Shown one piece after another: positions 35,304 to 56,198 of a DNA stretch of 64,000 nt. A program made the position numbers and the translations under genes. The stretch comes from Phycisphaerae bacterium (GTDB lineage Bacteria > Planctomycetota > Phycisphaerae > UBA1845 > PWPN01), in contig JAAYDF010000229.1 in assembly GCA_012729395.1 (NCBI GenBank), forward strand, positions 1 to 64,000. The letters are read 5' to 3'. A model generated the notes under the pieces. The model was not told the origin of the DNA. It did no database searches and saw nothing but the letters and a program-made list of their open reading frames with translations. Numbering within the stretch: position 1 is the stretch's first letter; every line of letters begins with the position of its first letter.

Positions 35304-36083
35304 TCAGGCTGCCCGGCGACGCCGACGGGCCACCACCATTCCGCCCAGTGCTAACAGGCAGATGGACGCCGGCTCGGGGACAATCACGAACGCGCTGGTT
35401 CCGCTGGCTTGGTCACCCGGGCTGAGAATGAACTCGAACTCGCTTTCCATCATGTAAACCGTCGTGCCCAGATCGCTCCAACCCAGAGCGGGCAGCCGCT
35501 CAGTCATGCCCTGCCCAAAATCCGTGCTGAATTGCGCAACAAGGCTCGCAAAAGCGGTATTCGTCCACACTACAGGGTGCGTACCGTAACGCGCCTGGTA
35601 GAGCTTCTGATTCGGGAAGGTGCCGGCCGAAGTCAGTGAAGCGTTGGCCGGGCTACCCGCCCCGTCGGTCAGCGTCAGCGAAGCGGTAGCCCGGGCTTCC
35701 GCGTTCGGTATCCCATCGAACACCAACCGAGCCGCCTTGATGCTCACATACACCGGGTCGGTCATGCTACTGTTGGTCACCGCAAATCGCAGGTCAACCT
35801 GGGGGTCAGCGTCGAACACCACACCCAGATCGCTGAAGACGGCCAGTTCCTGGCCCTCGTCTGCCATCACCAACCCCTGGATCGCCCACGGCAGCACTCC
35901 GCCAAAGCTCGCGACAGGAAACACCTCCGAGAAGGTGTCCGTATGCCCGCCACATGTAGCCGTGACCTCAATGATGCTGGCCGTGGCCGGGGACGCTCCA
36001 CCCAACGCGGCCCCCGTGCAGACCAACACGCCCACAGCCGCCAACGCAACCCACCGCAACTGTGCAGACAATCCGTGAACCAT
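35304..36083 (-). CDS. PEP-CTERM secreted protein
   Basis: A 259-residue exported protein. It has an N-terminal signal peptide (WVALAAVGVLVCTGAALGG) and a C-terminal sorting signal: VPEPASICLLALGG, a membrane helix and the tail RRRRRAA. PEP-CTERM tails are recognised by exosortase, which removes them on the way to the surface or matrix. The middle part is a beta-rich domain I do not recognise, with few Cys. ATG 36083 has AAGGAGG six bases upstream. The gene is monocistronic on the minus strand. Confidence 0.88.
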   Translation of the reverse strand: MVHGLSAQLRWVALAAVGVLVCTGAALGGASPATASIIEVTATCGGHTDTFSEVFPVASFGGVLPWAIQGLVMADEGQELAVFSDLGVVFDADPQVDLRFAVTNSSMTDPVYVSIKAARLVFDGIPNAEARATASLTLTDGAGSPANASLTSAGTFPNQKLYQARYGTHPVVWTNTAFASLVAQFSTDFGQGMTERLPALGWSDLGTTVYMMESEFEFILSPGDQASGTSAFVIVPEPASICLLALGGMVVARRRRRAA

Positions 36084-36472
36084 GGAAACCCTCCTTATGG
36101 TACCTCCCGAGCCCGCTCTATGTGCCCGGTCTTGACTTGATGCCACCCTCCAGCCGCGGCAACCCACCGCGATCTGCGAAGGCTATGTGTCTGGAAAGGC
36201 TGCTTGCTAGGCAGGGCCTTTCGCCTCCTTATCCGGCGAGTCTATCCGATGACGCATTGGATTGCAAGAGAAACAACGATATTCGTATCAGAGATCTTCT
36301 CGCGTCCGTCCATCCGCCTGGTTCATCCCCTGGCGCACATAACACATTGCGATACAATATCTTATGGAATCATAGACTCCTGTCATCCCTCGATCGAGGC
36401 TCGTCACGGCGACAAATCTACCTAAACATGTCCTCTTTTTCGGTCATCCAGAAACCCAGCCTGGAGCTTCAG
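36084..36472. other. Non-coding, relatively AT-rich stretch with a leader hairpin
   Basis: No gene is supported. AAAGGCTGC (36195-36203) and GCAggGCCTTT (36211-36221) can pair around a 7-base loop with a two-base bulge, about 115 bases upstream of the PEP-CTERM gene and so possibly in its leader. The right end borders the stop of the protease gene (36473). Confidence 0.45.
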
Positions 36473-38683
36473 CTATTCCTTTTCGCCTACCGCAAACCAA
36501 GTCGATTTGAGAACCGAGTAATCGAGGATATTCGCAACGCCATCCCCGTTGATATCCCCGATTCCCGCGATGCCCCAATGCGTCTTGAGCAGTGAGTAAT
36601 CGAGCACGTTCACCGAGTTGGATCCGTTGAGATCGCCGCCAAGCAGCACGAAGTCGATCGTTCCCTGCCCTTCCTCCGACAATGCCCCCTCCTGCCTTCG
36701 TCGCAAATGCCAGGCGGTCTTCGCACTCAATGCCGCGATGCCTGCCGGCACGTCCGTCAGAACGTAGGAGCCGCTGGCTACCTCTTCGTGGTTGGTGAAG
36801 TCGACACTGATCGTCCACGACTTCAGCACACCGCCCCCCTCGCCGCTGGCAACGAAGACCACGTCCCGCACGAAGCCGTAATCCACAGAGGAGTAGGTCG
36901 CCAGCCGCACCGTACCGGCCATCTGCCGGTCAAAACACAACACGCCGGCCAGCTCGGCGTTGTTCCCGGCACGGTCCCTCGCCATCCCTTGGATCATCCA
37001 TTCGCCCGTCTCCGTATCCTCGTCGATGTTCACAACATAGTTGAACTGCCCCGCGGGATTCTCCCCCGAGTACGTAACCGGCAACGTGAGGTTCCCCTTG
37101 CCCGCCGACACGACAGGCGGCCCCTCCAGGCCGGCCAACAGATCAGCCGTCGTCACGGCAACCCGCACCTCGCCCTGGTGGGTCAAATGTGCGCAAGCCA
37201 ACACATCGACCCCCACCCCGCCCTGCTCCTGCGTGGCCGCCAACGCGATCGTCGGCGGCGTGCCATCGACCACAATCGCCTGGCTATCCACCTTCCGAGG
37301 CAGAACCGTCAACCCCCATGTGTCCGCGAACATCGTGGTCCGCGTCAATCCGGGGTCCGGCGCAGGATCGGGACGGAAAACGAGCCGTGTCGTCCCCTCG
37401 CCTGTCGCAACCAAGCTGATCACCGCCGTCGTGGCGTCTTCTTGCGTCCCCAACTCGCCGGATTGCAGATCCACCCCGACCGCCATATCCAGGTCACCCT
37501 CCTCTTTGAGCACGCTGTAGATGACCTCGTTCCAGGGTGGAGCACCGGGAGCAACGTTCACGTCGCCGGGCGCCGTCGAGAAATGCGATGAACTGAACGC
37601 CAAAAACGCCTGCAAGCCCGTGACCCGCTGAGCCAGGTTCAGGGCATCCAGATCCACAACGACCTGATCGCCCGGACGCACGTGGGCGGGATCTCCCTGC
37701 ACGTTGAACCGTAATGTGTTGTGCTCCCAGGTCAGCCCTGCCTGCTGTGCGATCCAGCCCCCGGATGGGAACAGCATGATGCCCCCCCCGGCCGAGCCAA
37801 ACATCGGAGCCGCGTAGGGTTGCCCGGTGAAACGAGCGATATAGGTGTTGATGCCCGCCAGCTTGTACGATCCGCCGTCCACAATGAAGGCCGGTCCGCC
37901 CGAGTCCCCGAAACCATAGGTCGTCTCGATCGCGTTTCCCAAGGTCAAATCGCCCAGGATGTTGGTGGCCTCGTCAGGACCGTCGAAATCGAAGACGAAC
38001 ACCTCCGAAAACCCTCGGCCCTCGTCATCCAAAAAAGACACGTCGGCCACGTTTCGGCCCCATCGCTTGACGTATCCGTTTTCCATGAACCACGGGTGAA
38101 ACCCAATATCCCCCCATCCGCTACGCCCATACCCCACGAACGTCAGCACGTCGCCCTGGGTCATTGGGCGGGCGAGGATGTCATAGATCGGCACGCCCTC
38201 CGGAATCGGTTCCTCCAACGTGAGCACCGCCAAATCGTCGTTGAGTGCCGGGCGAGAGAATCCGGAGAAATCCGGGTGAAGCTGGATCTCGCTCACGCCG
38301 AGCGTGTGCGTCAAGTCCCCGCCGAAGTTCAACGTGAACGTGACCTCCTCAGGAAGGTCGTCCGCGATGCCGTCGTTGTCCAAATCGATGACGTGGGCCG
38401 CTGTTAAAACGTGAAACCGGCTGATCGCCACACCCGTCGCCCGGAACGCGCCGTTCACCGCCAAACCGCCAACGCCCCCAAAGGGCGAAGTCACGTCGTT
38501 CGGGTCCACCCGATACGCCGGGTCGTCGGGCGGGGATACCAGATATCCCCCGGCCAGGAGAACCGCTTCCACATCATCCAGCAGAACATCCTCAGCCCGA
38601 AGAGGCTCCTCGCCCCCGGCGATCGCTCCTCCCAGAACACACCATGCGCACAGATACCTCAATACAAAACGTGAGTTGACCAT
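36473..38683 (-). CDS. Secreted trypsin-like serine protease with cohesin-like domain and C-terminal dockerin
   Basis: A 736-residue exported protein. After the signal peptide comes a chymotrypsin-fold protease domain (about 35-290) with the full triad: His in LTAAHV, Asp in NDDLAVLTL, Ser in GDSGGPAF. A cohesin-like beta-sandwich follows (VRPGDQVVVDLDALNLAQRV, about 325-465), then an Ig-like domain, a conserved beta module (LSAKTAWHLRRR), and a dockerin type I pair (GGDLNGSNSVNVLDYSLLKT and GDINGDGVANILDYSVLKST) ending FAVGEKE. The same four-part tail occurs in three other genes here. ATG 38683 gives a proper signal peptide with GAGG upstream. It could mature or anchor matrix proteins. Confidence 0.9.
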   Translation of the reverse strand: MVNSRFVLRYLCAWCVLGGAIAGGEEPLRAEDVLLDDVEAVLLAGGYLVSPPDDPAYRVDPNDVTSPFGGVGGLAVNGAFRATGVAISRFHVLTAAHVIDLDNDGIADDLPEEVTFTLNFGGDLTHTLGVSEIQLHPDFSGFSRPALNDDLAVLTLEEPIPEGVPIYDILARPMTQGDVLTFVGYGRSGWGDIGFHPWFMENGYVKRWGRNVADVSFLDDEGRGFSEVFVFDFDGPDEATNILGDLTLGNAIETTYGFGDSGGPAFIVDGGSYKLAGINTYIARFTGQPYAAPMFGSAGGGIMLFPSGGWIAQQAGLTWEHNTLRFNVQGDPAHVRPGDQVVVDLDALNLAQRVTGLQAFLAFSSSHFSTAPGDVNVAPGAPPWNEVIYSVLKEEGDLDMAVGVDLQSGELGTQEDATTAVISLVATGEGTTRLVFRPDPAPDPGLTRTTMFADTWGLTVLPRKVDSQAIVVDGTPPTIALAATQEQGGVGVDVLACAHLTHQGEVRVAVTTADLLAGLEGPPVVSAGKGNLTLPVTYSGENPAGQFNYVVNIDEDTETGEWMIQGMARDRAGNNAELAGVLCFDRQMAGTVRLATYSSVDYGFVRDVVFVASGEGGGVLKSWTISVDFTNHEEVASGSYVLTDVPAGIAALSAKTAWHLRRRQEGALSEEGQGTIDFVLLGGDLNGSNSVNVLDYSLLKTHWGIAGIGDINGDGVANILDYSVLKSTWFAVGEKE

Positions 38684-39391
38684 CAGGTTAGCGCCTCTTT
38701 GCCCAGCGTTCCGTCGATACCCATCCGCCGGCACGCCCCGCTCACCCAGAATGCGGCTCAGCAGAACGCTCCGAGCAGCCCCCCTTGGAGTGGTGCTCCG
38801 ACAGCCCCCATCTTGCTCAGGTTTTTTCTGATCTCTCGATAAGCATACCCGCCCCGGTAACGCTCTGCAAGCCGCCTGGTCGAAATCAGCCCCGTGAGTG
38901 ATCCACGAACGATGGCAATCACCGTTTTTCCGGGTTGGCCGCTCCTGAGAGGTGGACCACAAGGTTATCTACCGCAGGGATTTGCCCATCCGACCCGGCG
39001 GCAGCCCCCCCGAACGCCCCCCCTCGACGTGCCGAGAGCTCCTGGTCCTTCGGCTTATCGCTCCCTCCCCGCAGAAGAGACTCTTCGCCCGCCTCTATGG
39101 ACCAACGCTCGGGCGGACAGCACTTCCTTGCCGCCACGAGGATCAGCGGGGGCTCTGGCGAAAACCGGACCCTGGCACTTGACATCGGCGTCTCAAGTCA
39201 TACATTGAGGCTAGCGCTGGGTTCTGCCCCAACCGGGCTAAACGCGTCGGACCGCCGTGGAGAAAGTAAACGTTACACGCGCCGACAAGCATTCCGGCCT
39301 GGCTCTCGTGCTGACAACTGGATCTGGCAAACACTAACGCAGCTTCGTACGCGGAAGGTCTGAGCGGCCGTCTGATGCAAGGGCCACGCTC
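38684..39391. other. Non-coding stretch with a promoter for the pseudo-receiver gene
   Basis: No gene is supported between the divergent protease and pseudo-receiver genes. A sigma-70-type promoter lies at 39179-39206. The rest holds only short GC-driven frames. Confidence 0.6.
39179..39206 (+). promoter_or_regulatory. Sigma-70-type promoter upstream of the pseudo-receiver gene
   Basis: A perfect -35 TTGACA (39179-39184) and TACATT (39201-39206, four of six) are separated by 16 bases. It points at the gene starting at 39392, leaving a leader of about 180 bases. Confidence 0.55.
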
Positions 39392-39868
39392 GTGGATGAC
39401 ACGCCGGTCAAAATCGCTTTAGTCAGTCACGACCGCCGACACCGTCGGTTTCTTGCGAAGACTCTCCACTCCCCTCAAGCACTGCAACTGGTCGCGGAAT
39501 TCGAGGGTTTCACGGCTCTTTCCGCGCGCACTCTGGCAACCACTGCGGACCTTGTCGTTCTTTACCTGGCCTCGACCGACTGCCATCGGCAAGTTCCGAT
39601 GCTCGATCTTCTCTGCGATTTATCAGATTGCATGAAGGTGATTCTCGTTGGTGAATGCCAGAATGAGGAGCATGTCGCCGCTCTGCTGCGCACCGGGGCT
39701 CATGGCTATGTGCTGAACGAACGTGCCGACCAGGAATTGCCAACCGCCATCGAGTCTGTGCTTCGTGGTCGTCGTTTCATCTCGATGCCGATCCTCGATG
39801 CCATGGCTTTCAGGTTCATCGACCGAGAAAACGATACGCCCTCTTGTTCGGACGCTGATTCGACGTGA
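39392..39868 (+). CDS. Degenerate receiver (pseudo-receiver) protein without output domain
   Basis: A 158-residue protein with the fold and spacing of a NarL-type receiver (DLVVLYLAS, KVILVGECQNEEHVAALLRTGAHGYVLNERAD) but without the chemistry: the phospho-acceptor Asp position is Tyr 58, the conserved Lys is Asn 109, and the acidic pair reads SHD. There is no LuxR-type helix-turn-helix after it. It would therefore bind a partner independently of phosphorylation. GTG 39392 has AAGGG eight bases upstream, and a promoter and a terminator-like hairpin (39878-39906) frame it as a single-gene unit. Function unknown. Confidence 0.75.
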   Translation: MDDTPVKIALVSHDRRHRRFLAKTLHSPQALQLVAEFEGFTALSARTLATTADLVVLYLASTDCHRQVPMLDLLCDLSDCMKVILVGECQNEEHVAALLRTGAHGYVLNERADQELPTAIESVLRGRRFISMPILDAMAFRFIDRENDTPSCSDADST

Positions 39869-39877
39869 ATTTGTTCC

Positions 39878-39906
39878 CAATGCGCCCAGGACTTCTGGTC
39901 GCATTG
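39878..39906 (+). terminator. Terminator-like hairpin without U tract
   Basis: Arms 39878-39889 and 39895-39906 pair at 11 of 12 positions (one C-T mismatch) around a 5-base loop, nine bases after the pseudo-receiver stop. No T run follows. Confidence 0.55.
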
Positions 39907-40663
39907 CACCACGGATGCTCCTGTCCGGGGCCTGGGATCCAGGGCGATGCTGCTGCGCGATGTGCCGCCGGGAGAGACCGAAACCCGCCTGACAACACCT
40001 CTCATCACGGCCGGCCCCCATTTGTAGGGCCCGATCCCTCTTGCCTGGGTCGGACACAAACGGCCGGAAATCACCGTCCGGCGTACCGCCCAAGGTTCCG
40101 GGCCGCTCGCAGTAGAGAGCCTCACTATTTACGAAAATCAGAAATCTTCGGTTGACAGATCACGCCGATCGCGTATACTGGGGCACGTCGCTGACGCAGC
40201 ACAAGGGGAAGCTTCGTCGGCCGATGGCAGCGCGAGGCGATGCCGTCTCCATAGATCGCGTATCCAGCGGTCCGCTCACGAGCCTGGATAGCTCGCGTCG
40301 GACCCACAGGGGAACAGGGGAAGGAGTTGATGGGGTAAAGCACAAATGTGCAGTGGCGACAAAGGGGAAGCAACCACCTTTCCGCCATGGGTCGGGGACT
40401 TCGAGGGGCTGACATCGTCGCCTCGATGCCGCGCCTTGCTCTCGGCATGATCCACGTCTCGAGCAGGTGCTGCCCCCACCCCACCCTAACTGTCCTCCCG
40501 CAAACGAACCTCGGGTATGCGCTTGCCCCGTGGATTGTCGCCTGCGCGTATCCGCGATGAGCGCGGGCCAGAGCCGCTCTCGCCACGTCGTCGGACTAGG
40601 CCACTAACCGAGGCAGGAAGCGCCTCACGGCCTGATCGAGGCCCTGACAAAGGAGCACGAATC
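39907..40663. other. Non-coding stretch holding a strong promoter and a long leader
   Basis: No gene is supported. A consensus-like promoter lies at 40152-40179. If it drives the beta-helix gene at 40664, the leader is about 480 bases. I see only small local hairpins in it and no riboswitch class I can name. Confidence 0.55.
40152..40179 (+). promoter_or_regulatory. Strong sigma-70-type promoter
   Basis: TTGACA (40152-40157) and TATACT (40174-40179) are separated by 16 bases, 11 of 12 consensus positions. It is the best sigma-70 match in the window. It faces the beta-helix/dockerin gene 480 bases downstream. Confidence 0.65.
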
Positions 40664-43600
40664 ATGAAAGGTGCATTGAATCTGCTGATCATCTTGGCGA
40701 TGTGCGCAGGCACGGCCTGGGCGGATACCGTGTCCATTTCGGCCGGGGGCGACAGCACCACGGCGATTCAGACCGCGATCGATGGTGCGTCCGAAGCCCG
40801 GACCATCGTGCTGCAAGCCGGCACGCACGCAGTGTCAAGCCAAGTCAACGTCAACAGGCAAGATATTACCATCCAGGGTGAAGATCCCGCGAACACGCTC
40901 GTCCAGGTGAGCGGTACGGGATATCGCTTCTCGATCGCGGCTGCGGGCGCGGTCATCGAGAATCTGACACTGGAGAAAACCGACAAGACCGGCGTCCAGA
41001 ACCTCATCTACATCGGAGCCAGCAACGCAACCATTCGCGGAAACGTGATCTTTGGTCGGTACGTCATGGGCGATCCCGAGGTCAGTCGTGCCCTGGAGGT
41101 GACCTACGGAATCAGCGGGCTGACGATCGAGGAGAACGAAATCTACGCCCTCCGCCAACCCGCCTACATCAACGGCAGCCTGGCTTCACCCACGACGGGC
41201 AACATCACCAGTAACTACGTACACGGTACCAGGGGCTGGGTGATTGCCGGTGCCAACATGACCTTCAGCGGCAACACCTGGGGCAGCGGTGCCGACACGA
41301 ACTACCTGGACATCGCCATCCTGGCCGGAACCGATCCGAGCTACTACACGGACATCCCGGCACTCAGCGCGGCCCATCACGGCGCCGTGTTCGAGGATCA
41401 ACGCGTGAGCCCGGCCACGCTGACCACTGTCTATGTGGACGCCAACGCGGCTCCCGGCGGTGATGGAACGGTCACCAAACCCTATCAGACGATTACCCCA
41501 GCTGTTGCCCGTGTGATGACCGGCGGAACAATCCTCGTCGCGGCGGGCACGTACAACGAAACGGTCAGCGTGAGCAAATCGGTCAGCTTCGTTGGAGCAG
41601 GCTGCGGACAGACCATCTGGCGTGGTAGCGCCATCACCAGCCACTCCCTGAAAATCGTTCGTGACAACACCTCGCCGGCCGATGTCCACGTCGCCATCAC
41701 CGGTTTCTCCTTTGAAACCGAGAACAACCAGACCATTCGAGGCGACTGGAGCACAAGCTACGCCGAGGCACTGACGCTGGATATCCACGACAACTGCTTC
41801 GCACACGTGAACACCAGAAACCCCGGCACGGATTTCGCTCTCTACGTGAACGGCGCCAACCAGACCGCTCGCGACACCGAGGGGGCGATTCGCGTCTACA
41901 ACAACCAGTTTGATGTCGTGACCGGCGGCGTGCTCTTCGAGTATTGCCGTGCGGTGGACCTGCTGGACAACGACTTCCGCGTGACCTTTGAGGGCGTCAT
42001 CTTCAACTACTACGGGAACTCAGGTGCCTGCGGCGAGCAGTTGGTCAAGGGCAACGTGTTTACCCATGTTCCCGTTGAGTGGGCCCTGGCCATGAACAAC
42101 TGGCACGGAACGGGCAACTACACGGTCCTGCCAAGCGCAGTCACGAATAACGAGATCACCGCTACGGGCTTCTCCTACGCGATTCTCTATGGCGTTGCCG
42201 CGTCTCAAAGCCAGGCGCACGATTTCACGATCCAGGACAATGCCCTGCTGAGCGGCACGGTTTTTGTTTGGGGTGATTACGCCAGCCAAATCCTGCTGAA
42301 CGCCTCGGGGAACTGGTGGGGCAGCATCGCCAGCCCGGCCGGCCGCATCAACACTGCCGGCAGCGTCGACTACACCCCGTGGCTGGGCGGCGGAGACGAC
42401 ACAAGCACCGATCCCGGCTTCCAGGGCAACTTCTCCACCCTCTGGGCATCGGCCGCCAGCCCGCAGACCGGCACGACGGGCCGAATCCAGGAGGCTATCA
42501 ATTCTGTCGACGGCAGTACGGTCAACGTGCTGCCGGGAACCTACGCGGAGAGACTCACGATCAACAAGTCGCTGAACCTCTATGGGCCGCAGAAAGACGT
42601 CGATCCCACGGCATCCGGGGCGCGCACCAACTCAGCCAATGAGGCAATCGTAACCTGCGCGGGGCTCTCTACTCCCAACCCCGACGTTCTCATCGAAATC
42701 CCCACCGGGGTCACAGGCGTCGTTATCGACGGCCTCACACTCCAGGGTCACCCCACCAACCCCGTGGCAGACACATCGATTGTGCGTTGCTGGGGCAGCG
42801 ACCTCACCGTGTCGAACAACATCATGGACGGCTGGTATGCGGTCATCTTCAAAGGCGGTAACAACCTGACCGTCTCCGACAACCGCGTGACGGTCAACAA
42901 GGTCGGCGTGGCTTGCCAGCCAGGCACCAGTACTGAGATTACTTTGGCTGGCAACACATTCGTGCCGGGCACCAGCTCGGCAGCCGATTCACAGGCGGCG
43001 TACATGACCGCGGTGACCCATATGACCCTCACCGACAACGTCGCCTCCGGCTTCGGCGGGTCGGCGGTGGCCGGCAGTAATCTCTCCAACGTGCTCATCG
43101 AGGGCAATGTACTCACCAACTGCCGCGACGGCGTCAGTTTCTGGGGCAGCACCTACGACGTGGTGATCCGTGAGAATGAGCTGAGCGAACACACGCGATA
43201 CGGCATCAACTTCAAGGGGCAGAACCTCGACGTGCTTGACAATCGAATAGCGGATAACGGCAACACCGGCATCAACGTCGAACGGCATGTCATCGATACG
43301 CTGAACATCCATGTTCATGGAAATGAGATATTCGGAAACGCCAGCTTCGGCTTGAAGGCTGCCGCGAACATCACCGGGGTGGTGGACGCGGAAAACAACT
43401 GGTGGGGCCACGCTTCGGGTCCATACGACCCCGATGGTTCGGTCGAAGCGGACATCAACAACTGCGCCGACCCAGCCGTCATCAAGAATCCAAATGGGTT
43501 AGGCGACTTGGTCAGTGATGTCCAGGTCGACTACTGCCCATGGCTGCTTGGGCCGACCGCCCCCAACGCACTCTACCTGGTGCCGACAAGCGAAAGCATC

Positions 43601-44821
43601 TACATCAAACCAGGCGAAAGCGCGATTGTCGATATGAACGTGGCGAATCTTCTTCAGAAGGTGAACGCCTGCCAGGCGATGCTCGGGTACTCGTCCACTT
43701 ACTTCGAGGATCCGACGGCTGGAACGGTTGGACTGCCTGCCTCGGGACCGTGGGATCAGCTTATCTGGGATTCCTGGCTGAATTCAAGCGGAGCACCGGG
43801 TGAGATTGACACGGCCATCGGTGTCAACGCGGCGGGGACCGTGGGCACGGACGCCGACGGCAAGGTGTGCAAGATCACGCTGACCGCGAGGGCCGGCGTG
43901 CAAGGCATCACTCAGATAGTCTTCCGCCCGGACGCGGATCCGGATCCAGGCCTGGTGGCCAGTACTTACCTTTCGGACATGTTGGGCAACCCGGTCTGGC
44001 CGACCAAATTCGACAGCATTGGTATCGTCATCGACGACACGGATCCGGCGGTGGCGGCCCTGACGGCCACTCAGGACCAAGGCGCCGGCGCGGTGGATGT
44101 GCTGAACTGTGCGGCGACGACCCTGCAGGGCACGGTGGCCATCAGCGTGGGCGCGTCGGATGCCCTGGCCGGTATCGAGGCCGAGCCGGTCGTCACCGTC
44201 ACGCAGGGCGGCGACGCACTGACCGTGACCTACGCAGGTGAATCGCCGGCGGGAACGTTCAATTACACCGTGGACATCGAGCCCGACGCGGCCAATGGCA
44301 CCTGGACGATCGAGGCGACAGCCACGGATAAGGCCGGCAACGACGCCTCGGTATCCGGGACTCTGTGCGTAGACAAGAACCAGATCACCGGCCAGGTGGA
44401 GTTGGAGTCGCTGGTCGGCGGTCTGACTCGCACGGTGACCTTCGTGGCCACGGGCGGGGTCAAGAAGACCTGGGACATCCCGGTGGTCTTCCCCGCCGGC
44501 AGTGCGGTCGGCACCTTCACGCTGACCGAGGTGCCGGATGGAACCACCGCCCTCAGCGCCAAGACGAACTGGAATCTGCGTCGCAAGGTGGACTGCAGCC
44601 TCGACGGTGACGGCCAAGCTTCGGCCGACTTCATCGGCACCGCCAAGCTGCGCGGCGGGGATATCAACGGCTCCAACTCGATCAACATCCTCGACTACTC
44701 GGTGATGAAGATCAGTTGGATGGCCACCACCGCTGGCGACATCAACGGCGACGGGGCCACCGCCATGCTCGACTACTCGATCATGAAGAGCAACTGGTTC
44801 GTGGTGGGCGACGCCGAGTGA
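40664..44821 (+). CDS. Large secreted beta-helix protein with cohesin-like domain and dockerin
   Basis: A 1385-residue exported protein. The signal peptide ends near TAWA. Right-handed parallel beta-helix repeats fill about 20-950, in three blocks; two restart with the DUF1565-like pattern VYVDANAAPGGDGTVTKPYQTI or similar, typical of pectate-lyase-like folds that bind or cleave polysaccharide. I see no clear lyase active site. Then come a cohesin-like domain (about 965-1120, IYIKPGESAIVDMNVANL), an Ig-like domain, the conserved LSAKTNWNLRRK module and a dockerin (GDINGSNSINILDYSVMK, GDINGDGATAMLDYSIMK) ending FVVGDAE. GGAG lies eight bases before ATG 40664. The tail is almost identical in DNA to that of the next gene. 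Confidence 0.9.
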   Translation: MKGALNLLIILAMCAGTAWADTVSISAGGDSTTAIQTAIDGASEARTIVLQAGTHAVSSQVNVNRQDITIQGEDPANTLVQVSGTGYRFSIAAAGAVIENLTLEKTDKTGVQNLIYIGASNATIRGNVIFGRYVMGDPEVSRALEVTYGISGLTIEENEIYALRQPAYINGSLASPTTGNITSNYVHGTRGWVIAGANMTFSGNTWGSGADTNYLDIAILAGTDPSYYTDIPALSAAHHGAVFEDQRVSPATLTTVYVDANAAPGGDGTVTKPYQTITPAVARVMTGGTILVAAGTYNETVSVSKSVSFVGAGCGQTIWRGSAITSHSLKIVRDNTSPADVHVAITGFSFETENNQTIRGDWSTSYAEALTLDIHDNCFAHVNTRNPGTDFALYVNGANQTARDTEGAIRVYNNQFDVVTGGVLFEYCRAVDLLDNDFRVTFEGVIFNYYGNSGACGEQLVKGNVFTHVPVEWALAMNNWHGTGNYTVLPSAVTNNEITATGFSYAILYGVAASQSQAHDFTIQDNALLSGTVFVWGDYASQILLNASGNWWGSIASPAGRINTAGSVDYTPWLGGGDDTSTDPGFQGNFSTLWASAASPQTGTTGRIQEAINSVDGSTVNVLPGTYAERLTINKSLNLYGPQKDVDPTASGARTNSANEAIVTCAGLSTPNPDVLIEIPTGVTGVVIDGLTLQGHPTNPVADTSIVRCWGSDLTVSNNIMDGWYAVIFKGGNNLTVSDNRVTVNKVGVACQPGTSTEITLAGNTFVPGTSSAADSQAAYMTAVTHMTLTDNVASGFGGSAVAGSNLSNVLIEGNVLTNCRDGVSFWGSTYDVVIRENELSEHTRYGINFKGQNLDVLDNRIADNGNTGINVERHVIDTLNIHVHGNEIFGNASFGLKAAANITGVVDAENNWWGHASGPYDPDGSVEADINNCADPAVIKNPNGLGDLVSDVQVDYCPWLLGPTAPNALYLVPTSESIYIKPGESAIVDMNVANLLQKVNACQAMLGYSSTYFEDPTAGTVGLPASGPWDQLIWDSWLNSSGAPGEIDTAIGVNAAGTVGTDADGKVCKITLTARAGVQGITQIVFRPDADPDPGLVASTYLSDMLGNPVWPTKFDSIGIVIDDTDPAVAALTATQDQGAGAVDVLNCAATTLQGTVAISVGASDALAGIEAEPVVTVTQGGDALTVTYAGESPAGTFNYTVDIEPDAANGTWTIEATATDKAGNDASVSGTLCVDKNQITGQVELESLVGGLTRTVTFVATGGVKKTWDIPVVFPAGSAVGTFTLTEVPDGTTALSAKTNWNLRRKVDCSLDGDGQASADFIGTAKLRGGDINGSNSINILDYSVMKISWMATTAGDINGDGATAMLDYSIMKSNWFVVGDAE
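44372..44667 (+). repeat. Near-identical 296-bp segment, copy 1 (copy 2 at 48233-48528)
   Basis: Bases 44372-44667 and 48233-48528 differ at about eight positions by eye (about 97% identity), while the flanking dockerin and Ig-like codons diverge. The segment encodes the LSAKTNWNLRRK beta module before the dockerin. It indicates recent gene conversion or duplication. Confidence 0.85.
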
Positions 44822-45028
44822 GCCATCAGCCCGGCGGGCATCGCATTGGAGCCGGCCGGTTGCGTGCCCAAGGAGGGGTAAGCCCGATGGATCGCATGTG
44901 ACGTATCGGTTCCGTCGGAATGGACAGGCAGATCCCCCGCATGGGAAACCCTGGCGGCAGCGGGCCGTCACCCCAAGCGGATAGAGCAATGACGGCCGAC
45001 CAGAGGCCCACACGAAGGAGCATGCAAG

Positions 45029-48000
45029 ATGAGACGATCAGGAATGGTATGGCTGACAGCGCTGGCGGTGCTGGTCACCGCGGGCAGCGCATGGGCGGAC
45101 TGGCACACGCTGGTGATCCGCAATGCGACGACCAGCGGCAATCCGCCGGCAATCGTGGACAACACTGACTACGGTGTGCCGGCCAAGGAGTTCATCATCG
45201 CGGAAGGTGGCCAGAAAGCCGCATGGAGCACATCGGTGCTCGACGGTTTCACTGTTGGGGAGATTGCCCAACTGGCGGTCACCCGCTTCGACGATCGAAC
45301 GCGATTTGCGCCGACGTCCGGCGGCTATAGCGCCCCCTACTTCAACATCTGGATCACCGATGGCTCGGGACAATACGCGGTGATCGCTAACGAGCCGTCG
45401 GACTCGGTATTTCAGCCCCTTTACAGCAACGGCTACGATCTGACCTGGGCGGATATCTCCGACAAGCCGGTCAAAGTATACGAAAACAGCGACATAAGCT
45501 GGCTGCCCAACAACGGCGTAGGTCTGACTTTTGACGATATCAAGGACTTCGTGATCCAGGCTCCGTCGCCCGCCGAACTGGCCGCGGGCTGGCCCGGCCT
45601 GGGGACAGGCGCTCCGCGAGAACTAGGCACCAACATCGCCTACGGCTTCAACTGGATCCTTGGCGACACCCTCAGCAACTATGTGTCCGGCGATCCCGGT
45701 TACATTCTTGCCCAGCCCGGCGCCGGCGCGTTCGTGACGACGAACTACACCGTCACCCCGCAGATTCTTGCCGCCGGCAAGCCGGAGTTCAGCGCTCCGC
45801 ACGGCACGGGCGATAACCCGTTCGGCTATGACTGGGACTCGCGGGCTCCGGACACGGCTGCCGGCGCCCCCACCGGTTACGGATCGTCGAGCTTCTACGC
45901 CAACGTCGATCACAGCGACCCCGATCCTGACAGCCGCTACGTCACGCTGCGCATCGGGCTGCGCGACCTCTTCGGCCGCGAGGTGACCATCGGTGAGCTG
46001 ACTGCCCTGAGCTACTGGACCAACAAACCCACCGACCAGACAGCCATGGATTATCGCGTCACCATGTACACGACTTTCGACGACAGCGACAACCAGAATG
46101 GCGCGTCCTGGTACCGCAGCCGGCTTCAAGCCAGCCCGCACGCTGCCGCCAATCTCTCCGCCCCCGCCGATACGTGGAACCAGTGGACCACCGGCGGAGC
46201 AACCAACGAATTCCGCTTCTACGAGTCCACCAGCAAGCGCAGCTACTCGAACATGGCCTGGACGGACATCACGGACGGCGAAACCACATGGGACTACTCC
46301 GGTGAAGAAATCATGATGATCGATATCGGGCTCGGCACAAGAAGCAGCAGTCCAGCCTCCTGGTGGACCGGTGAAAGCCGGCTTGACGGCCTCCGCATCG
46401 AACTGGCCAACGGCCAGATCGCCGACATCGACTTGGCCGCGGGCACGGCCTGGCAAGTCGCCACCGTGCACGGCCACGATCAGTTCACCATCAGCGACGG
46501 CGGCTCTACCCTCCTCTACCACGCTCAGCCGCGCAACAGCAAGGAGTGGTACTGGTTCAACAACAACGGATCGGCCCCCGACGTCCTGGCGACCGGCGGG
46601 TTCGGGCCCAACGGCTGGCGAGACGGCTCGCGCACCTTTGCCGTATCCGACGTCGCGGTGGGCAAGAAGCTCAATGAGATCAAGCTGGCCTTCGAGTACA
46701 ACAACACCCTCGGCGGCTATACGACCATGAACTTCTTCCTTACCGACGGCAACGGCAAGTTCGGTATCTTTGCCCCCACTTCTCTCGGGATCCAGGCCAT
46801 CTCCGAGCAGGTCGTGGTCGATGGCTGGACACGGATCACCTTGGATCTGACCAAAACGAGCATTGCCGACTCCACAGCCGTCGCCATCTATGAGCACAAC
46901 GGATTCACCGATGTTTACGGCAACCCCTATACCACCATGACCTGGGGGGACATCAAGGAGTACACCATCGCCGGCATGTACGACTACCAGCGCAGCCCGG
47001 CCCACGGCTGGAGCAAATGGGGCAAGATGTTCGACCCAATCAACATCGCCGGCGAGGATGCGGTGGTCAACGGCTACGGCCTTGCCTTGATCTGGGGCGA
47101 TACCGTCGGTAACACCGCCTACGCCACCCAACAGCGACAGATCCGCAACGTGCAGGTCTCGTTCGACACCGTCGACTACCTCGGCACCTTCGCCGATGCC
47201 CAGATCCGCGACATTCTCGAGCTCAACGTCCAGCCTGACAGCCTGTACGTCAAGCCCAGCGAGAGCGTTACACTCAATATGGACGTCAAGAACCTGCAGC
47301 AGATGGTCAACGGTTGCCAGGCGCTCATTGGCTACGACTCCGAGTACTTCCCGGCTGCCGGCACGGTCGCCCCGGGCGGCGGCGGAGTATGGGAAGAACT
47401 CATCTATGAAGTCTGGCGAGATATCGCGGGCGAGTTGGACACGGCCATCGGCGTCCAGCTGACCGGAGGTGCGGGTACGGATGACGACGGCACAGTGGCG
47501 ATCATCGCCCTGACCGCCGGCACCAAGGAAGGCACTACCCAAATGGTCTTCCGTGCTGACGGCGAATACGGCTACGCCACCATGCTCAGCGACTTGAACG
47601 CCGAGCCCGTATGGCCGACGAAGATCGACAGTCAGACCATCGTCATCGACGGGACGGACCCGACGGTCGACACGTTCTCCGCAGACCCACTGTGCACCAA
47701 GACCACCACCACGCTGACCTTCACGGTCTCGGACGCTCTGGCCGGCGTGGACTATGTGGATGTTTACGTGGACGGTGCCAAGGTCGCCGAGGATGTCGCC
47801 AGCCCGTACGCGCTGGACATGAGCGGCTACGCGACCGACTGTTACGACGTGACCCTCAAGGTGGTCGACAAGGCCGGCAACGAAGCCGACAGCTCGGCGG
47901 TCGAGGTCTGCGTGGACAAAACCGCCCCGGCAATCAGCAACATCGCGGCCGAGCAGGATGGCGAAGACGTGCTCTGCCCGGCGGTGGCGGTGCAGGGCGT

Positions 48001-48685
48001 CGTGAACATTTACGTGGACGTCACCGACGCCGGCTGTGCCGATCTCGTGGTCCCGCCCGCGCTGACTGTGGACGGTATCGGCGCGGCGGTCTATGTGGAC
48101 GTGAGCGGCGATACCTACCACTATCAGGTGACGATCAGTGGCGCGACCGCCAACGGTGCTCATACCATCACCGTCGAGGCCGCGGATGCTCTGGGTAACA
48201 CCGCGTCCGACAATGCCCAGGCTATCTGCGTGGACAAGAACCAGATCACCGGCCAGGTGGAGTTGGAGTCGCTGGTCGGCGGTCTGACTCGCACGGTGAC
48301 CTTCGTGGCCACAGGCGGGGTCAAGAAGACCTGGGACATCCCGGTGGTCTTCCCGGCCGACAGTGCGGTCGGCACGTTCACGCTGACCGAGGTGCCGGAT
48401 GGAACCACCGCCCTCAGCGCCAAGACGAACTGGAACCTGCGTCGCAAGGTGGCCTGCAGCCTCGACGGTGACGGTCAAGCTTCGGCCGACTTCACCGGCA
48501 CCGCCAAGCTGCGCGGCGGGGATATCAAGCCTGACAACTACATCAACATCCTTGATTACTCGGTCTTGAAGAGCAACTACTTGTCGTCGAACGACGTGGC
48601 CGACATCGACGGCGACGGCACCGTCGGTTTGGTGGACTACTCCCTAATGCGGTCCAACTGGTTCCAGCCAGGAGACGCGGAGTAG
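45029..48685 (+). CDS. Large secreted protein with two related N-terminal domains, cohesin-like domain and dockerin
   Basis: A 1218-residue exported protein with signal peptide (VWLTALAVLVTAGSAWA). The N-terminal 720 residues contain two or more similar beta-rich domains, each ending in an IKDFVIQ- or IKEYTIA-type strand and a YGFNWILGDTLSN or YGLALIWGDTVGN segment. I do not recognise the family; lectin-like carbohydrate binding is a guess. A cohesin-like domain follows (LYVKPSESVTLNMDVKNLQQ, about 738-870), then two Ig-like domains, the LSAKTNWNLRRK module, and a dockerin (NILDYSVLKSNY, DIDGDGTVGLVDYSLMRSNW) ending FQPGDAE. AAGGAG precedes ATG 45029. Confidence 0.85.
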   Translation: MRRSGMVWLTALAVLVTAGSAWADWHTLVIRNATTSGNPPAIVDNTDYGVPAKEFIIAEGGQKAAWSTSVLDGFTVGEIAQLAVTRFDDRTRFAPTSGGYSAPYFNIWITDGSGQYAVIANEPSDSVFQPLYSNGYDLTWADISDKPVKVYENSDISWLPNNGVGLTFDDIKDFVIQAPSPAELAAGWPGLGTGAPRELGTNIAYGFNWILGDTLSNYVSGDPGYILAQPGAGAFVTTNYTVTPQILAAGKPEFSAPHGTGDNPFGYDWDSRAPDTAAGAPTGYGSSSFYANVDHSDPDPDSRYVTLRIGLRDLFGREVTIGELTALSYWTNKPTDQTAMDYRVTMYTTFDDSDNQNGASWYRSRLQASPHAAANLSAPADTWNQWTTGGATNEFRFYESTSKRSYSNMAWTDITDGETTWDYSGEEIMMIDIGLGTRSSSPASWWTGESRLDGLRIELANGQIADIDLAAGTAWQVATVHGHDQFTISDGGSTLLYHAQPRNSKEWYWFNNNGSAPDVLATGGFGPNGWRDGSRTFAVSDVAVGKKLNEIKLAFEYNNTLGGYTTMNFFLTDGNGKFGIFAPTSLGIQAISEQVVVDGWTRITLDLTKTSIADSTAVAIYEHNGFTDVYGNPYTTMTWGDIKEYTIAGMYDYQRSPAHGWSKWGKMFDPINIAGEDAVVNGYGLALIWGDTVGNTAYATQQRQIRNVQVSFDTVDYLGTFADAQIRDILELNVQPDSLYVKPSESVTLNMDVKNLQQMVNGCQALIGYDSEYFPAAGTVAPGGGGVWEELIYEVWRDIAGELDTAIGVQLTGGAGTDDDGTVAIIALTAGTKEGTTQMVFRADGEYGYATMLSDLNAEPVWPTKIDSQTIVIDGTDPTVDTFSADPLCTKTTTTLTFTVSDALAGVDYVDVYVDGAKVAEDVASPYALDMSGYATDCYDVTLKVVDKAGNEADSSAVEVCVDKTAPAISNIAAEQDGEDVLCPAVAVQGVVNIYVDVTDAGCADLVVPPALTVDGIGAAVYVDVSGDTYHYQVTISGATANGAHTITVEAADALGNTASDNAQAICVDKNQITGQVELESLVGGLTRTVTFVATGGVKKTWDIPVVFPADSAVGTFTLTEVPDGTTALSAKTNWNLRRKVACSLDGDGQASADFTGTAKLRGGDIKPDNYINILDYSVLKSNYLSSNDVADIDGDGTVGLVDYSLMRSNWFQPGDAE
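48233..48528 (+). repeat. Near-identical 296-bp segment, copy 2
   Basis: Partner of 44372-44667 at a distance of 3861 bases, in the same orientation and the same position within the protein tail. Confidence 0.85.
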
Positions 48686-48724
48686 TCCGTGTGAAGGCAG
48701 AAGGGTCTTGATGGCAGTCGGCAG

Positions 48725-48756
48725 GCGCCGGCGGGACGACCGCGTCCCGCCGGCGC
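48725..48756 (+). terminator. Very strong GC hairpin after a dockerin gene
   Basis: Arms 48725-48738 and 48743-48756 are perfectly complementary over 14 bases around a 4-base loop (ACCG), 40 bases after the stop. No T run follows. It could be a U-tract-less terminator or an mRNA-stabilising 3' structure. Confidence 0.6.
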
Positions 48757-48843
48757 TGCGTGGCACCGATACCACACCGACACACGGCGGCATCCCGCCA
48801 CGGGCCCAACGGAAGCGACCCGTGGCCTGGAGAGGAGGAGGTT

Positions 48844-50172
48844 ATGCGGCAACAAGCACTCAGGCCGGCCTTGCTCGCACTCGGACCTGCGCTGGCGGTC
48901 GTTCTGGTAGCACTGGGTCAGCCCACGCCTGCGATGGGCAACCCGAACACCCTCGCGCTCGAGGTGTCTTGCGAATCGTTGTTTGTCCAGCCGGGCGAGC
49001 CAGTGGTGCTCGGTCTCGACGTCTCCAACCTCGCTCAGATGATCAACGGCTGCCAAGCACTCATCGGGTACAACTCGACCTACTTGACCAGCCCCCACAG
49101 CGTGGCTCCCGGCGGCGGGTTCTGGACCGAACTGATCTACGAAAGCTGGCACGCACCGGGCGAGCTCGACACCGCCATCGGGCTGCAACTCGAAGGCGGT
49201 CCGACGGGAACCCAGGCCGACGCAACCATAGCCACCATCACCCTGACGGCCGGAACCACGGAAGGAGCCACCTTCCTCGTCTTTCGCTCCGACACCGACG
49301 ACAGATACGCCACCATGCTCAGCGACCTGAACGCCGAGCCCGTATGGCCCTTCAAAATCGATAGCCAACCCATCGTCATCGACGGTACGCCCCCTGTGCT
49401 GGTCGACCTGACCGCGACCCAGAACGGAGTTGATGTCCTTGACTGCGCCAATCCAACCGTCCAGGGCTTGGTGAGTATCACGGTGGACGCGGCCGACGTC
49501 CTGGCCGGCCTGGAGGGTATCCCGAGCATCGACATCACCGGCCCTGAAACCCTCGCCGCCACCCTCACCGACGACGAGGGGCCGAGCTTCGGATGGGAGG
49601 TCGTCATCGGTCCGACTACCCCCCAGGGTACATACACCATCGCCATCACCGCAACGGATCGCGCGGGCAACGAAACCACCGCGACAGGCACACTGTGCGT
49701 GGACCCTAACCAGATCACCGGCACAGTACAGATGAGCACGTTATCGGGTGCAGCATACGGCTTTGACCGCGAAGTGGTGTTCAAGGCGACGGATACCGGG
49801 AATACCGTGCTCCAAACATGGACAGTCACCGTGACCTTCACGAACAACCCGGTAACGAGAACCGCCGCCGGCTCCTATGTACTGACCCTGGTGCCCGGCA
49901 GCACGGCGAGGCTTAGCGCCAAGACGGACTGGAGCCTGCGGAAGCGGATACCCGTGACTCTGGACACCTATGGCCAAGGGGTGGCGAACTTCACCCTAAC
50001 CAGCGGCGATCTCGACGGCTCCAACACCGCGAACATCCTGGATTACTCGATACTCAAGGCGAACTGGATGACCGCCGGCCCAGCCGGCGATTACAACGGG
50101 GACAGCCAAGTCATGCTGCTGGACTATTCGCTGCTGAAAAATGCCTGGTTCACAACCGGCGATCCCGAGTGA
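48844..50172 (+). CDS. Secreted cohesin-like/Ig-like/dockerin protein (minimal form)
   Basis: A 442-residue exported protein with only the shared modules: signal peptide (1-40), cohesin-like domain (about 42-180, LFVQPGEPVVLGLDVSNLAQ), Ig-like domain (about 182-290), the beta module with LSAKTDWSLRKR, and a dockerin (GDLDGSNTANILDYSILKAN, YNGDSQVMLLDYSLLKNAW) ending FTTGDPE. It is the smallest paralog and shows that the four-part tail is an independent unit. It could be a scaffold or linker. AGGAGGAGG lies directly before ATG 48844. Confidence 0.88.
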   Translation: MRQQALRPALLALGPALAVVLVALGQPTPAMGNPNTLALEVSCESLFVQPGEPVVLGLDVSNLAQMINGCQALIGYNSTYLTSPHSVAPGGGFWTELIYESWHAPGELDTAIGLQLEGGPTGTQADATIATITLTAGTTEGATFLVFRSDTDDRYATMLSDLNAEPVWPFKIDSQPIVIDGTPPVLVDLTATQNGVDVLDCANPTVQGLVSITVDAADVLAGLEGIPSIDITGPETLAATLTDDEGPSFGWEVVIGPTTPQGTYTIAITATDRAGNETTATGTLCVDPNQITGTVQMSTLSGAAYGFDREVVFKATDTGNTVLQTWTVTVTFTNNPVTRTAAGSYVLTLVPGSTARLSAKTDWSLRKRIPVTLDTYGQGVANFTLTSGDLDGSNTANILDYSILKANWMTAGPAGDYNGDSQVMLLDYSLLKNAWFTTGDPE

Positions 50173-50244: not shown

Positions 50245-50354
50245 TTGATTTCGATTAGCATATTCCCTTACAATGCAGTACGTTCCCGTCGGTGGAGTTG
50301 CCCGTGCAGTCAACGAGCGGGAAGGCGGAAAAGCATCACTCTCGGAGGACAGCC

Positions 50355-51035
50355 ATGGAAAGTCGCACATACCTCGCATGTGGTCTGCTTGTTCTAGGAA
50401 TGCTCATGCCGGTCCCGGCGTGGGGGCATGATATGGTTCAGCCCCCATGGCGAGGCGATGAAGGCACAACCTATCAGGAGTGGCGGTTTGACACCGACGC
50501 CAACCCCGCTTTGCCCGAGGTGATCTCAAATTCATACGGCTCTGCCATGGCATCCATCGTCCTTGGCGACTATGCCTCCGGGTGGCAGGTGCAACTCCCC
50601 AGCCTCGGCGATCAGATCGGATACTGGGATCTCGGCGGGGATCGAGGCAACGGCGGCGGGAGCATCCTGATCGATGTCGACAATCGGCCGCTGGCTCTCG
50701 AGTGCAAAGAGGTTTGGGTGCAGGTGACGTACTTCCGTGACATGTCCCAAGCTCCAACAGTCACCGTACCCGGCGCAGCCTACGTCACCGGGCAAACCCT
50801 GCTGGTCGAGCACGTACTCACCGGCGGAGATTGGTACCTGGATCAGTCCATCTGGCGGATCGAGCCCAACCCGGATCACGAGCAAATCCTCATCACCAGC
50901 GACCCGACGTGGGGATCGGTGATTGACCAGATCGTGATCGACACGATCTGTATCCCTGAGCCGGCTACCATGGGACTGTTCCTGGTCGGATCCTGGGCGA
51001 TGATCGCCCGACGGCGCAGGGCCGCTCGCGTCTGA
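50355..51035 (+). CDS. PEP-CTERM secreted protein
   Basis: A 226-residue exported protein. Signal peptide (YLACGLLVLGMLMPVPAWG) and C-terminal sorting signal (IPEPATMGLFLVGSWAMI then ARRRRAARV) are clear. The middle is a beta-rich domain with Trp/Asp-rich strands; I do not recognise it, though similar layouts occur in planctomycete PEP-CTERM proteins of unknown function. GGAGG lies six bases before ATG 50355. Confidence 0.85.
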   Translation: MESRTYLACGLLVLGMLMPVPAWGHDMVQPPWRGDEGTTYQEWRFDTDANPALPEVISNSYGSAMASIVLGDYASGWQVQLPSLGDQIGYWDLGGDRGNGGGSILIDVDNRPLALECKEVWVQVTYFRDMSQAPTVTVPGAAYVTGQTLLVEHVLTGGDWYLDQSIWRIEPNPDHEQILITSDPTWGSVIDQIVIDTICIPEPATMGLFLVGSWAMIARRRRAARV

Positions 51036-52284: not shown

Positions 52285-52484
52285 CCATTACCGATCCTCC
52301 ATTCAAGGTGCCCTCAGAACAACACTTGTGGCGAAGGCCTCCTGGCTTCAGCACGTCACAAAGCGTCCGATACCCCCTCCTCGATCAGAACTTACTGGTC
52401 GGCAGCATTTCCGACACCTACAGTTTACAATCTGAGGTGTTCATCGGAACCGACACCTCCGGGCCAGTACAAGGGAAAAAGGGT

Positions 52485-53495
52485 ATGGGGAGAAAACACT
52501 TCAACCCGCAAGGGGAAAGCGCCCATCCTGTATGCCGGTCACAGGCTTTGGTTGGGGAAGCCTCACTCATCGCCGCGTTGAAGAAGCGCATCGAGAAAGT
52601 CAGCCTCCGCGACCACACGGTGTTGATTCGCGGGGAATCCGGCAGCGGCAAGGAGTTGGTCGCGCGGGCCATTCATGCGGCCAGTCGGCGCGCCGTGCAC
52701 CCGTTTGTGGCCGTGGATTGCACAACCCTGCGTGATACCCTTTTCGAGTCGCAGCTTTTTGGGCACGTACGTGGGGCTTTTACGGGAGCGGAGCAGGCGA
52801 CTCTGGGCTTCTTCCGCACCGCCGACGAGGGGACGCTCTTCCTTGATGAAATTGGCGAGTTGCCACCTCATATCCAGGCCAAGCTGCTGCGCTGCATCCA
52901 GGAAGGGGCGGTAGTTCCGCTCGGCAGCGTGGAGCCGATCCGGGTAAACGTACGGATCGTAGCCGCCACGCACCGCGATCTGCAGAGGATGGTGCGGGAG
53001 GGCGCTTTCCGGGGCGATCTGTATTATCGGCTGAACGTGGTGTGCCTCGATGTGCCGGCGTTGCGGGACCGGCGCGAGGATATCCCCGCGTTGGCACGGT
53101 TTTTTCTGGAGCAGCAGGCGAGTCTGTATCACGAGCCGGCCCGGACACTCGCTGAAGAGGTTTGCAGGGTCCTTTGTGCGTATCATTGGCCGGGCAATGT
53201 TCGCGAGCTGGCGAACGCGATCGAGCATGCCTGTGCCTTTTCTGAAGGCTCGGAGATCCAGCTGCGTGATCTGCCCCCGACCGTGCAACTGGCAGCAGCC
53301 AGCGCCCTCACCTCGCTGGAGGATCAAGTTCTTACTCTCGAGGCCGCCGAGCGTCTGGCAATACTGCAAGCCCTGCGAGCCGCTGGAAGCAATCGGGCTA
53401 AGGCGGCTCAACTCCTCCAGATCGAACGGCACCGGTTGTACCGCAAGATCCGTCGCTATCAGCTCCACAACGTCGCGGATTCCGTGGCCATCTGA
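52485..53495 (+). CDS. Sigma-54-dependent transcription activator without sensory domain
   Basis: A 336-residue enhancer-binding protein. The AAA+ domain starts almost at once (residue 23) with Walker A GESGSGKE (50-57), the sigma-54-contacting loop GAFTGA (97-102), Walker B LFLDE (118-122) and the R-finger region. A Fis-type helix-turn-helix closes it (AKAAQLLQIERHRLYRKIRR, 306-325). It lacks a receiver, GAF or PAS input domain, like PspF, so control must come from a partner or from expression. In Proteobacteria, PrsR, an activator of this class, drives PEP-CTERM genes; here it sits between PEP-CTERM genes. ATG 52485 has AGGGA upstream. Confidence 0.92.
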   Translation: MGRKHFNPQGESAHPVCRSQALVGEASLIAALKKRIEKVSLRDHTVLIRGESGSGKELVARAIHAASRRAVHPFVAVDCTTLRDTLFESQLFGHVRGAFTGAEQATLGFFRTADEGTLFLDEIGELPPHIQAKLLRCIQEGAVVPLGSVEPIRVNVRIVAATHRDLQRMVREGAFRGDLYYRLNVVCLDVPALRDRREDIPALARFFLEQQASLYHEPARTLAEEVCRVLCAYHWPGNVRELANAIEHACAFSEGSEIQLRDLPPTVQLAAASALTSLEDQVLTLEAAERLAILQALRAAGSNRAKAAQLLQIERHRLYRKIRRYQLHNVADSVAI

Positions 53496-54618: not shown

Positions 54619-55257
54619 ATGACAATGCGTAAGAAGGTAGGTGTGCTGGTGGCGGGCCTGGCAGCCTTGGGATTGTCTCCGCTGGCCTTCGCCCAGGGCG
54701 TGGGCAACCTTGGCGACCTGCCGAGCGGCATTCCGCAAGCTGGTCCCACTGGCTGGCTGATCGGCAACCCGTCGGCACCGATCCCCGTGGTCCGCGATCC
54801 AGCCGGCCCGAAGTGGATCAAGCTGCTGACCGATCCGAATGGCGGGCCGATCGTCAACCCGAATCCCGGCACCATCTACAACCTCAATGAGACTGTACTT
54901 ATCTCCGGCAATCTCTGGTGGTCCGACTGGCACGAGGAGATCATCACCCCGGGCTGGGAATGGACTTCGACCGTGGTGATCCTGGAGAACGTACTGAATC
55001 CGCCGGCGGGGCTCAACATCGTCAACACCCCCGGCAGCCCCACGCAAGGCGGGACTCTGGAGTTCTACTTCGATCCCCTGCCGCCCGGTACGGTGCTCCA
55101 CATCCGTAAGCAGTTGGAGTACGTGGGCATCGCGGGCACGGTGCACTTCGGGGCGGTTGAGGTCGCTCAATATCCCACTCCTGAGCCGGCCACGATGGGC
55201 CTGCTGGCCGCGGGCGGCCTTTTGGCGTTGCGTCGCCGTCGCTTGCGGGCGAGGTGA
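54619..55257 (+). CDS. PEP-CTERM secreted protein (QGVGN family, copy 1)
   Basis: A 212-residue exported protein with signal peptide (VLVAGLAALGLSPLAFA), a mature start QGVGNLGDLPSG, a Trp-rich beta domain (WWSDWHEEIITPGWEW) and sorting signal TPEPATMGLLAAGGLLAL plus RRRRLRAR. The gene at 56199 is a clear paralog with the same order of features (DWHETILSPSWAWTN), separated by an unrelated PEP-CTERM gene. Function is unknown. AAGGAG lies before ATG 54619; a second ATG is two codons later. It heads a run of four PEP-CTERM genes. Confidence 0.87.
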   Translation: MTMRKKVGVLVAGLAALGLSPLAFAQGVGNLGDLPSGIPQAGPTGWLIGNPSAPIPVVRDPAGPKWIKLLTDPNGGPIVNPNPGTIYNLNETVLISGNLWWSDWHEEIITPGWEWTSTVVILENVLNPPAGLNIVNTPGSPTQGGTLEFYFDPLPPGTVLHIRKQLEYVGIAGTVHFGAVEVAQYPTPEPATMGLLAAGGLLALRRRRLRAR

Positions 55258-55337
55258 GGCTTGAACAGGGCGTATACCGCCCCCTTGAGAAATGTAGAAG
55301 GAATGCGGAACAAGCGGATGTCCACAAGGAGCAACGT

Positions 55338-56081: not shown

Positions 56082-56089
56082 TCCGCCTT

Positions 56090-56108
56090 CGCGGCACGGT
56101 TTGCCGCG
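56090..56108 (+). terminator. GC hairpin after a PEP-CTERM gene
   Basis: CGCGGCA (56090-56096) and TGCCGCG (56102-56108) pair perfectly around a 5-base loop, nine bases after the stop. No T run. Confidence 0.45.
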
Positions 56109-56198
56109 GCACATGGATATGTTGCTTCACGGCCGTGTGGCCATGAAGGCTCAGTAGTTGGGAAATTTCAATCTCACCGAGTGTCAAGGAGAAACCAA

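Follow-up and report, generated by a model that had tools for sequence, protein, structure and literature searches.

A cohesin-dockerin complex for peptide degradation, the planctosome, was proposed in 2019 for Nemodlikiaceae of the class Phycisphaerae, with an adaptor protein that carries both modules, and stands as a hypothesis without biochemistry (PMC6461901). Some scaffoldins, among them Acetivibrio cellulolyticus ScaA, likewise combine cohesins with a C-terminal X-module-dockerin in a single chain (PMC3413522), so the premise of an initial annotation of the DNA studied here, that the two modules usually occur on separate proteins in cellulosomes, was inaccurate. Here we describe four genes, encoding the secreted proteins P1 to P4, at positions 36,473 to 50,172 of a 64,000-nucleotide stretch (the window) of contig JAAYDF010000229.1 from an uncultured Phycisphaerae bacterium (GCA_012729395.1). 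We see an even chance that these secreted proteins form part of a small cohesin-dockerin complex that is of the planctosome type and not a cellulosome. The locus is of wider interest in that genomes of its family encode many orphan dockerins, and with four cohesins and four X-module-dockerin (XDoc) dyads it is small enough for pairing to be tested in full, in 16 combinations. Such tests would make the hypothetical planctosome measurable and, should the pairs prove self-complementary, the set would amount to a material of natural origin in which cohesins and dockerins drive their own polymerisation.

All four proteins end in the same tail, which runs from a cohesin through one or two immunoglobulin-like (Ig-like) domains and an X-module (the 'LSAKT' module) to a dockerin. 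In the alignment of the four tails, identity to P4 is 48-51% and more than 100 columns are invariant. With the P4 XDoc as query, exactly four places in the whole genome were matched (E 4.5e-98 to 1.9e-28), and with the reading frames in place this bears out the initial annotation's claim of four genes with a common tail. Its observation that the N-terminal parts differ also held, these being a protease in P1, a beta-helix in P2, a region without Pfam match in P3 and a signal peptide only in P4, while the single Ig-like domain it gave each tail is right for P1, P2 and P4 but not for P3, which has two. By profiles built from relatives, the genome, which is 99.55% complete, contains exactly four cohesins and four full XDocs, one of each per chain. 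Given such a closed, one-to-one set in cis, pairing between chains is the simplest reading.

The initial annotation described the beta-sandwich as cohesin-like. A search of the PDB with the single P4 cohesin sequence, which is an insensitive approach, returned nothing relevant, homology being set later by profiles of relatives, and a whole-genome search with Pfam Cohesin (PF00963) gave zero matches, missing these four cohesins too. As the P4 cohesin alone scored 19.0 bits, under the Pfam cut-off of 24.1, relatives were gathered for profiles by searching 114 genomes of the same order, fetching the DNA and re-aligning the domains. Nearly all PDB sequences listed to E = 0.1 with the resulting profile are cohesins (best 3l8q, E 4.5e-8), and the profile of a second alignment found 1g1k, a cohesin of C. 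cellulolyticus, at E 4.8e-9. In turn, Pfam Cohesin matches 22 of the 26 aligned sequences (best E 6.7e-11), and several relatives, as whole proteins, exceed its cut-off. The AlphaFold model of the P4 domain has the cohesin jelly-roll fold, is of type I size, and all 50 of the PDB fold matches listed for it are cohesins (best E 2.5e-8; TM-score up to 0.77), the best by TM-score being of type I. A glutamine in strand 3 (Q33 of alignment A4), shared with ScaB type II cohesins, is invariant in all 26 aligned cohesins. As homology and predicted fold, we regard the assignment as secure, and the sandwich as a genuine cohesin.

The LSAKTxWxLRR module had been recognised in all four proteins by the initial annotation, which missed its probable identity. 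When this module and the dockerin of P4 were modelled together, five PDB fold matches were obtained at E < 0.001 (5g5d_B, 2b59_B, 3kcp_A, 4fl4_L and 4fl4_C), all of which are the XDoc of Clostridium thermocellum CipA and cover the whole dyad. Their TM-score of about 0.53 makes the resemblance a distant one, and sequence support is weak, with profile A6 spanning the X-modules of 4wi0_B, 5k39_B and 4u3s_B at E 0.007-0.03. An X-module is the best reading of the LSAKT module and gives a dyad with a predicted CipA-like fold; X60-type modules are reported to stabilise adjoining dockerins (PMC5590126). The dockerin itself is real, as had been claimed: the two calcium-loop-helix repeats of a type I dockerin (PF00404) score above the Pfam cut-off of 22.9 bits in P1, P2 and P4 and below it in P3 (16.4 bits), and the loops are mostly intact, seven of the eight keeping Asp, Asn or Ser at calcium positions 1, 3, 5 and 12. 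A third EF-hand-like segment, conserved as approximately SVxELxxxGLxxLxxADLNxDGxxDxxDIxxFA, comes after the XDoc in six related loci (L099, L101, L123, L126, L132 and L133); P1 to P4 do not have it.

These are not the only dockerins of the genome. Nearly all of those read at the 30 best loci are of another type with IFDLVxVRN repeats, and a uniform C-terminal GDVNGDGxVNIFDLVxVRNxLN..., often ending in CP, is found in dozens of proteins (L005-L034). Positions 10 and 11 determine specificity in cellulosomal dockerins (PMC8063739). This other type has Ile-Phe at 10-11 and Arg-Asn at 17-18, and the cluster dockerins have Ile, Val, Leu or Met followed by Leu or Val at 10-11 and Lys or Arg with mostly small residues at 17-18, in a count that picked repeats partly by motif and is thus biased at positions 11, 13 and 14.

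The initial annotation had also proposed a survey of the tail across planctomycetes. For the scan of the genome collection profile A7 took the place of A6, which was too diverse. Among the 114 genomes of the order both modules occur in 57 and neither in 44, with nine carrying the cohesin only and four the XDoc only, the latter all at E near 1e-7; of 391 other genomes sampled from the phylum, three gave a match to the cohesin. The Fisher P of 9e-18 for the co-occurrence within the order is descriptive and not a real probability, since the two modules frequently lie on a single chain and the genomes are related. Twelve other genomes of the family encode 9-52 dockerins each, yet they gave no such cohesin and no XDoc match at E 1e-6, their weaker XDoc matches covering mostly the dockerin half only; ordinary dockerins therefore do not need this cohesin. 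Across the order, as far as profile matches indicate, the XDoc tracks the cohesin, unlike ordinary dockerins. In the set of cohesin-bearing frames examined, the four here included, 50 of 74 also have an XDoc; most of the others end in a different dockerin-like tail, and a few have no such tail but a terminus that is membrane-like or PEP-CTERM-like. In related genomes, XDoc proteins in which no cohesin was detected lie in clusters together with cohesin proteins, as expected for pairing between chains, and the proteins of these clusters carry lamin-tail, HYR, CotH, CBM96 and laminin-G modules. Recurring beside the clusters of relatives (L123:11521-12168, L132:4912-5664, L117:2355-3101 and others) is a second cohesin-like family of about 250 amino acids, with a domain that starts LEWRP and a C-terminal dockerin, PEP-CTERM-like segment or membrane-like segment. 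One genome of the order (G282) has 28 XDoc and 29 cohesin matches, a strong lineage expansion.

In the proposed assembly, a cohesin would bind, in the presence of calcium, an XDoc carried by a different one of the four chains, and the proteins would join head to tail into extracellular chains or a network. P1 would supply the serine protease, P2 and P3 long modules that are non-catalytic or uncharacterised, and P4 would act as a pure or minimal linker, with the complex serving extracellular breakdown of protein (or protein and glycan), or adhesion. The initial annotation had made P2 a glycan-binding helix; Pfam supports a right-handed beta-helix, but glycan binding was a guess. Head-to-tail self-assembly of the set is plausible but unproven. 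Its strictest form, in which every member bears both halves of the same cohesin-XDoc pair and an extracellular head-to-tail matrix arises with no dedicated multi-cohesin scaffold, is one that we put forward tentatively, with rather more doubt than belief.

Several points weigh against pairing within the set. In the models the cohesin is of type I by size and best folds while the XDoc is type II-like, and cellulosomal type II XDocs pair with type II cohesins. The co-occurrence described above is largely trivial, the modules lying on one chain in 59 of about 100 top frames, and the profiles may have overlooked strongly divergent cohesins, just as Pfam Cohesin missed these four. In addition, where the two modules are already known from one chain, they differ in specificity and self-pairing is avoided (PMC3413522). 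The main doubt, raised by the type mismatch and by the lack of self-pairing in those chains, is countered in that cohesin type is documented as an unreliable predictor of binding specificity (PMC3413522) and the conserved glutamine is shared with ScaB type II cohesins. The clues to partner type are thus a type II-like XDoc and a local cohesin that is type I-sized with better type I fold matches, but with the ScaB-type glutamine.

Different specificities are the core of the alternative that survives best, although we consider it unlikely: the proteins would be adaptors, their XDocs plugging into an undetected anchoring cohesin or into a surface receptor of another kind and their cohesins collecting other partners, with no mutual polymerisation. 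ScaA and CipA, the known two-module chains, work in this way (PMC3413522), and a type I-like cohesin next to a type II-like XDoc suggests two specificities. Anchor-like cohesin proteins are also encoded in related genomes, one with three cohesins, a C-terminal membrane-like tail and no dockerin (L129:13448-15649), looking like an anchoring scaffoldin, and one small and cohesin-like with a PEP-CTERM-like end that matches just under the curated cut-offs (L123:11521-12168). However, two cohesin profiles detected no further cohesin in the bacterium's own genome, with the limit that too divergent ones may escape them, and the four cohesins are mutually alike, as are the four XDocs. The second cohesin-like family (A5), sought in this genome as a candidate anchor, was not found there, and neither was any other cell anchor for the complex.

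We think it improbable that the modules no longer form a binding pair, with the cohesin and Ig-like domains serving as spacers or to bind ligands, and the dockerin capping the C terminus in calcium-stabilised form or acting as a retention signal. The many dockerins without a detected cohesin in the family genomes would fit this, as would the existence of an NCBIfam 'GC-type dockerin domain-anchored' family (weak match, 13.6 bits against a cut-off of 29), but it sits poorly with the joint presence of XDoc and cohesin in 57 genomes and with the glutamine retained in every aligned cohesin. Slightly less probable still is a broad scaffold in which the four cohesins recruit dozens of other secreted proteins with IFDLVxVRN-type dockerins, for while the 76 dockerin matches at E <= 0.1 far exceed the number of cohesins and few scaffoldins serve many enzymes in cellulosomes, the many dockerins of the twelve family genomes lack such a cohesin and so have another job, and the 55 found here at E <= 0.001 barely exceed the 52 of the richest relative.

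The features of the locus are collected in Table 1. For P1 the start at 38683 is likelier than the TTG at 38962, as it yields a protein with a signal peptide, and the motifs TAAH, DDLAV and GDSGGP provide the H-D-S set of the protease. The N-terminal part of P3 has no Pfam match and no PDB match, and shows a weak internal duplication.

Table 1. Coordinates, strand and supporting evidence for the four proteins and their domains
Feature	Position	Strand	Evidence
P1, secreted trypsin-like serine protease with cohesin/Ig-like/X-module/dockerin tail	36473..38683	-	Trypsin PF00089 E 5.5e-8; Dockerin_1 26.3 bits
P1 protease domain	37883..38461	-	Trypsin/Trypsin_2 match, residues 168-360 of open frame
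P1 cohesin	37265..37720	-	Profile matches
P1 Ig-like domain	36923..37264	-	Alignment with P2-P4; no Pfam match of its own
P1 X-module	36644..36922	-	Alignment (A3); fold from P4 homologue
P1 dockerin	36476..36643	-	Dockerin_1 26.3 bits; calcium loops
P2, secreted beta-helix protein with tail	40664..44821	+	Beta_helix PF13229 E 1.2e-15; NosD 5.6e-12
P2 cohesin	43565..44035	+	Profile matches
P2 Ig-like domain	44036..44383	+	Big_13 E 1.1e-4, below cut-off; alignment
P2 X-module	44384..44647	+	97% DNA identity to P3 X-module
P2 dockerin	44648..44818	+	Dockerin_1 27.2 bits
P3, secreted, uncharacterised N-terminal part with tail	45029..48685	+	Open reading frame
P3 cohesin	47213..47650	+	Profile matches
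P3 two Ig-like domains	47651..48244	+	Big_13 E 5.1e-8, Big_7 E 5.3e-6, both above cut-off
P3 X-module	48245..48508	+	Alignment (A3); DNA identity to P2 X-module
P3 dockerin, weakest of the four	48509..48682	+	16.4 bits, below cut-off; Lys at calcium position 3 of repeat 1
P4, signal peptide and tail only	48844..50172	+	Reading frame, alignment
P4 cohesin	48946..49383	+	AlphaFold pLDDT 93.1, pTM 0.87; PDB fold matches
P4 Ig-like domain	49384..49713	+	Big_13 E 2.4e-4, Big_3_3 E 0.001, both below cut-off
P4 X-module (LSAKTxWxLRR module)	49714..49998	+	Modelled with dockerin: pLDDT 90.4, pTM 0.82
P4 dockerin	49999..50169	+	Dockerin_1 24.4 bits; 2y3n dockerin match, root-mean-square deviation 1.1 A, TM 0.84 by target

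Between P2 and P3, DNA identity reaches 97% in the X-module (with the same codon at 94% of the residues they share) as against 62% in the cohesin and 71% in the dockerin, which suggests recent gene conversion or module exchange confined to the X-module. Horizontal transfer of the cluster, considered because other family members do not have these genes, may or may not have occurred: the guanine-cytosine content of the region (0.61-0.64) does not set it apart from the window, and no near relative was found. Scans for promoters and terminators gave matches at chance level only. Read by eye, the cluster is flanked on both sides by short PEP-CTERM-like secreted proteins (35304-36167, 50292-51035 and 54619-57581), and a sigma-54-type regulator lies near 52300-53495.

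With the planctosome the locus shares the class Phycisphaerae, the union of cohesin and dockerin in a single secreted adaptor, as in all four proteins here, and a peptidase cargo, which is the trypsin-like serine protease of P1 rather than the metallopeptidases of the proposal (PMC6461901). Lamin-tail, HYR, cohesin and XDoc modules at related loci, like those of the proposed anchor and adaptor, supply part of the parts list, and neither the HYR adaptor domain nor the lamin-tail (LTD) anchor has a Pfam match in P1 to P4. The locus differs in that its protease is itself equipped with a cohesin, both modules are present in every member and an X-module is recognised. CipA and ScaA resemble the proteins in combining cohesin and XDoc on one chain and in the folds of both modules, but each of P1 to P4 has a single cohesin, neither a cellulose-binding module nor a glycoside hydrolase was matched in the four, and the cohesins and XDoc of CipA and ScaA differ in specificity; P1 to P4 do not make up a cellulosome, in which a scaffoldin with several cohesins carries plant cell wall hydrolases that bear dockerins. 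The non-cellulosomal cohesins of Archaeoglobus fulgidus (2xdh) and Clostridium perfringens (2vo8) are among the fold matches of P4 and are likened to it by fold alone. GC-type dockerin domain-anchored proteins (NF041540) also carry a C-terminal dockerin on secreted proteins, but only P3 matches that family, far under its cut-off. Both modules on one chain are therefore not new, being known from CipA and ScaA and from the planctosome proposal, and the locus is a variant of the assemblies proposed for Phycisphaerae.

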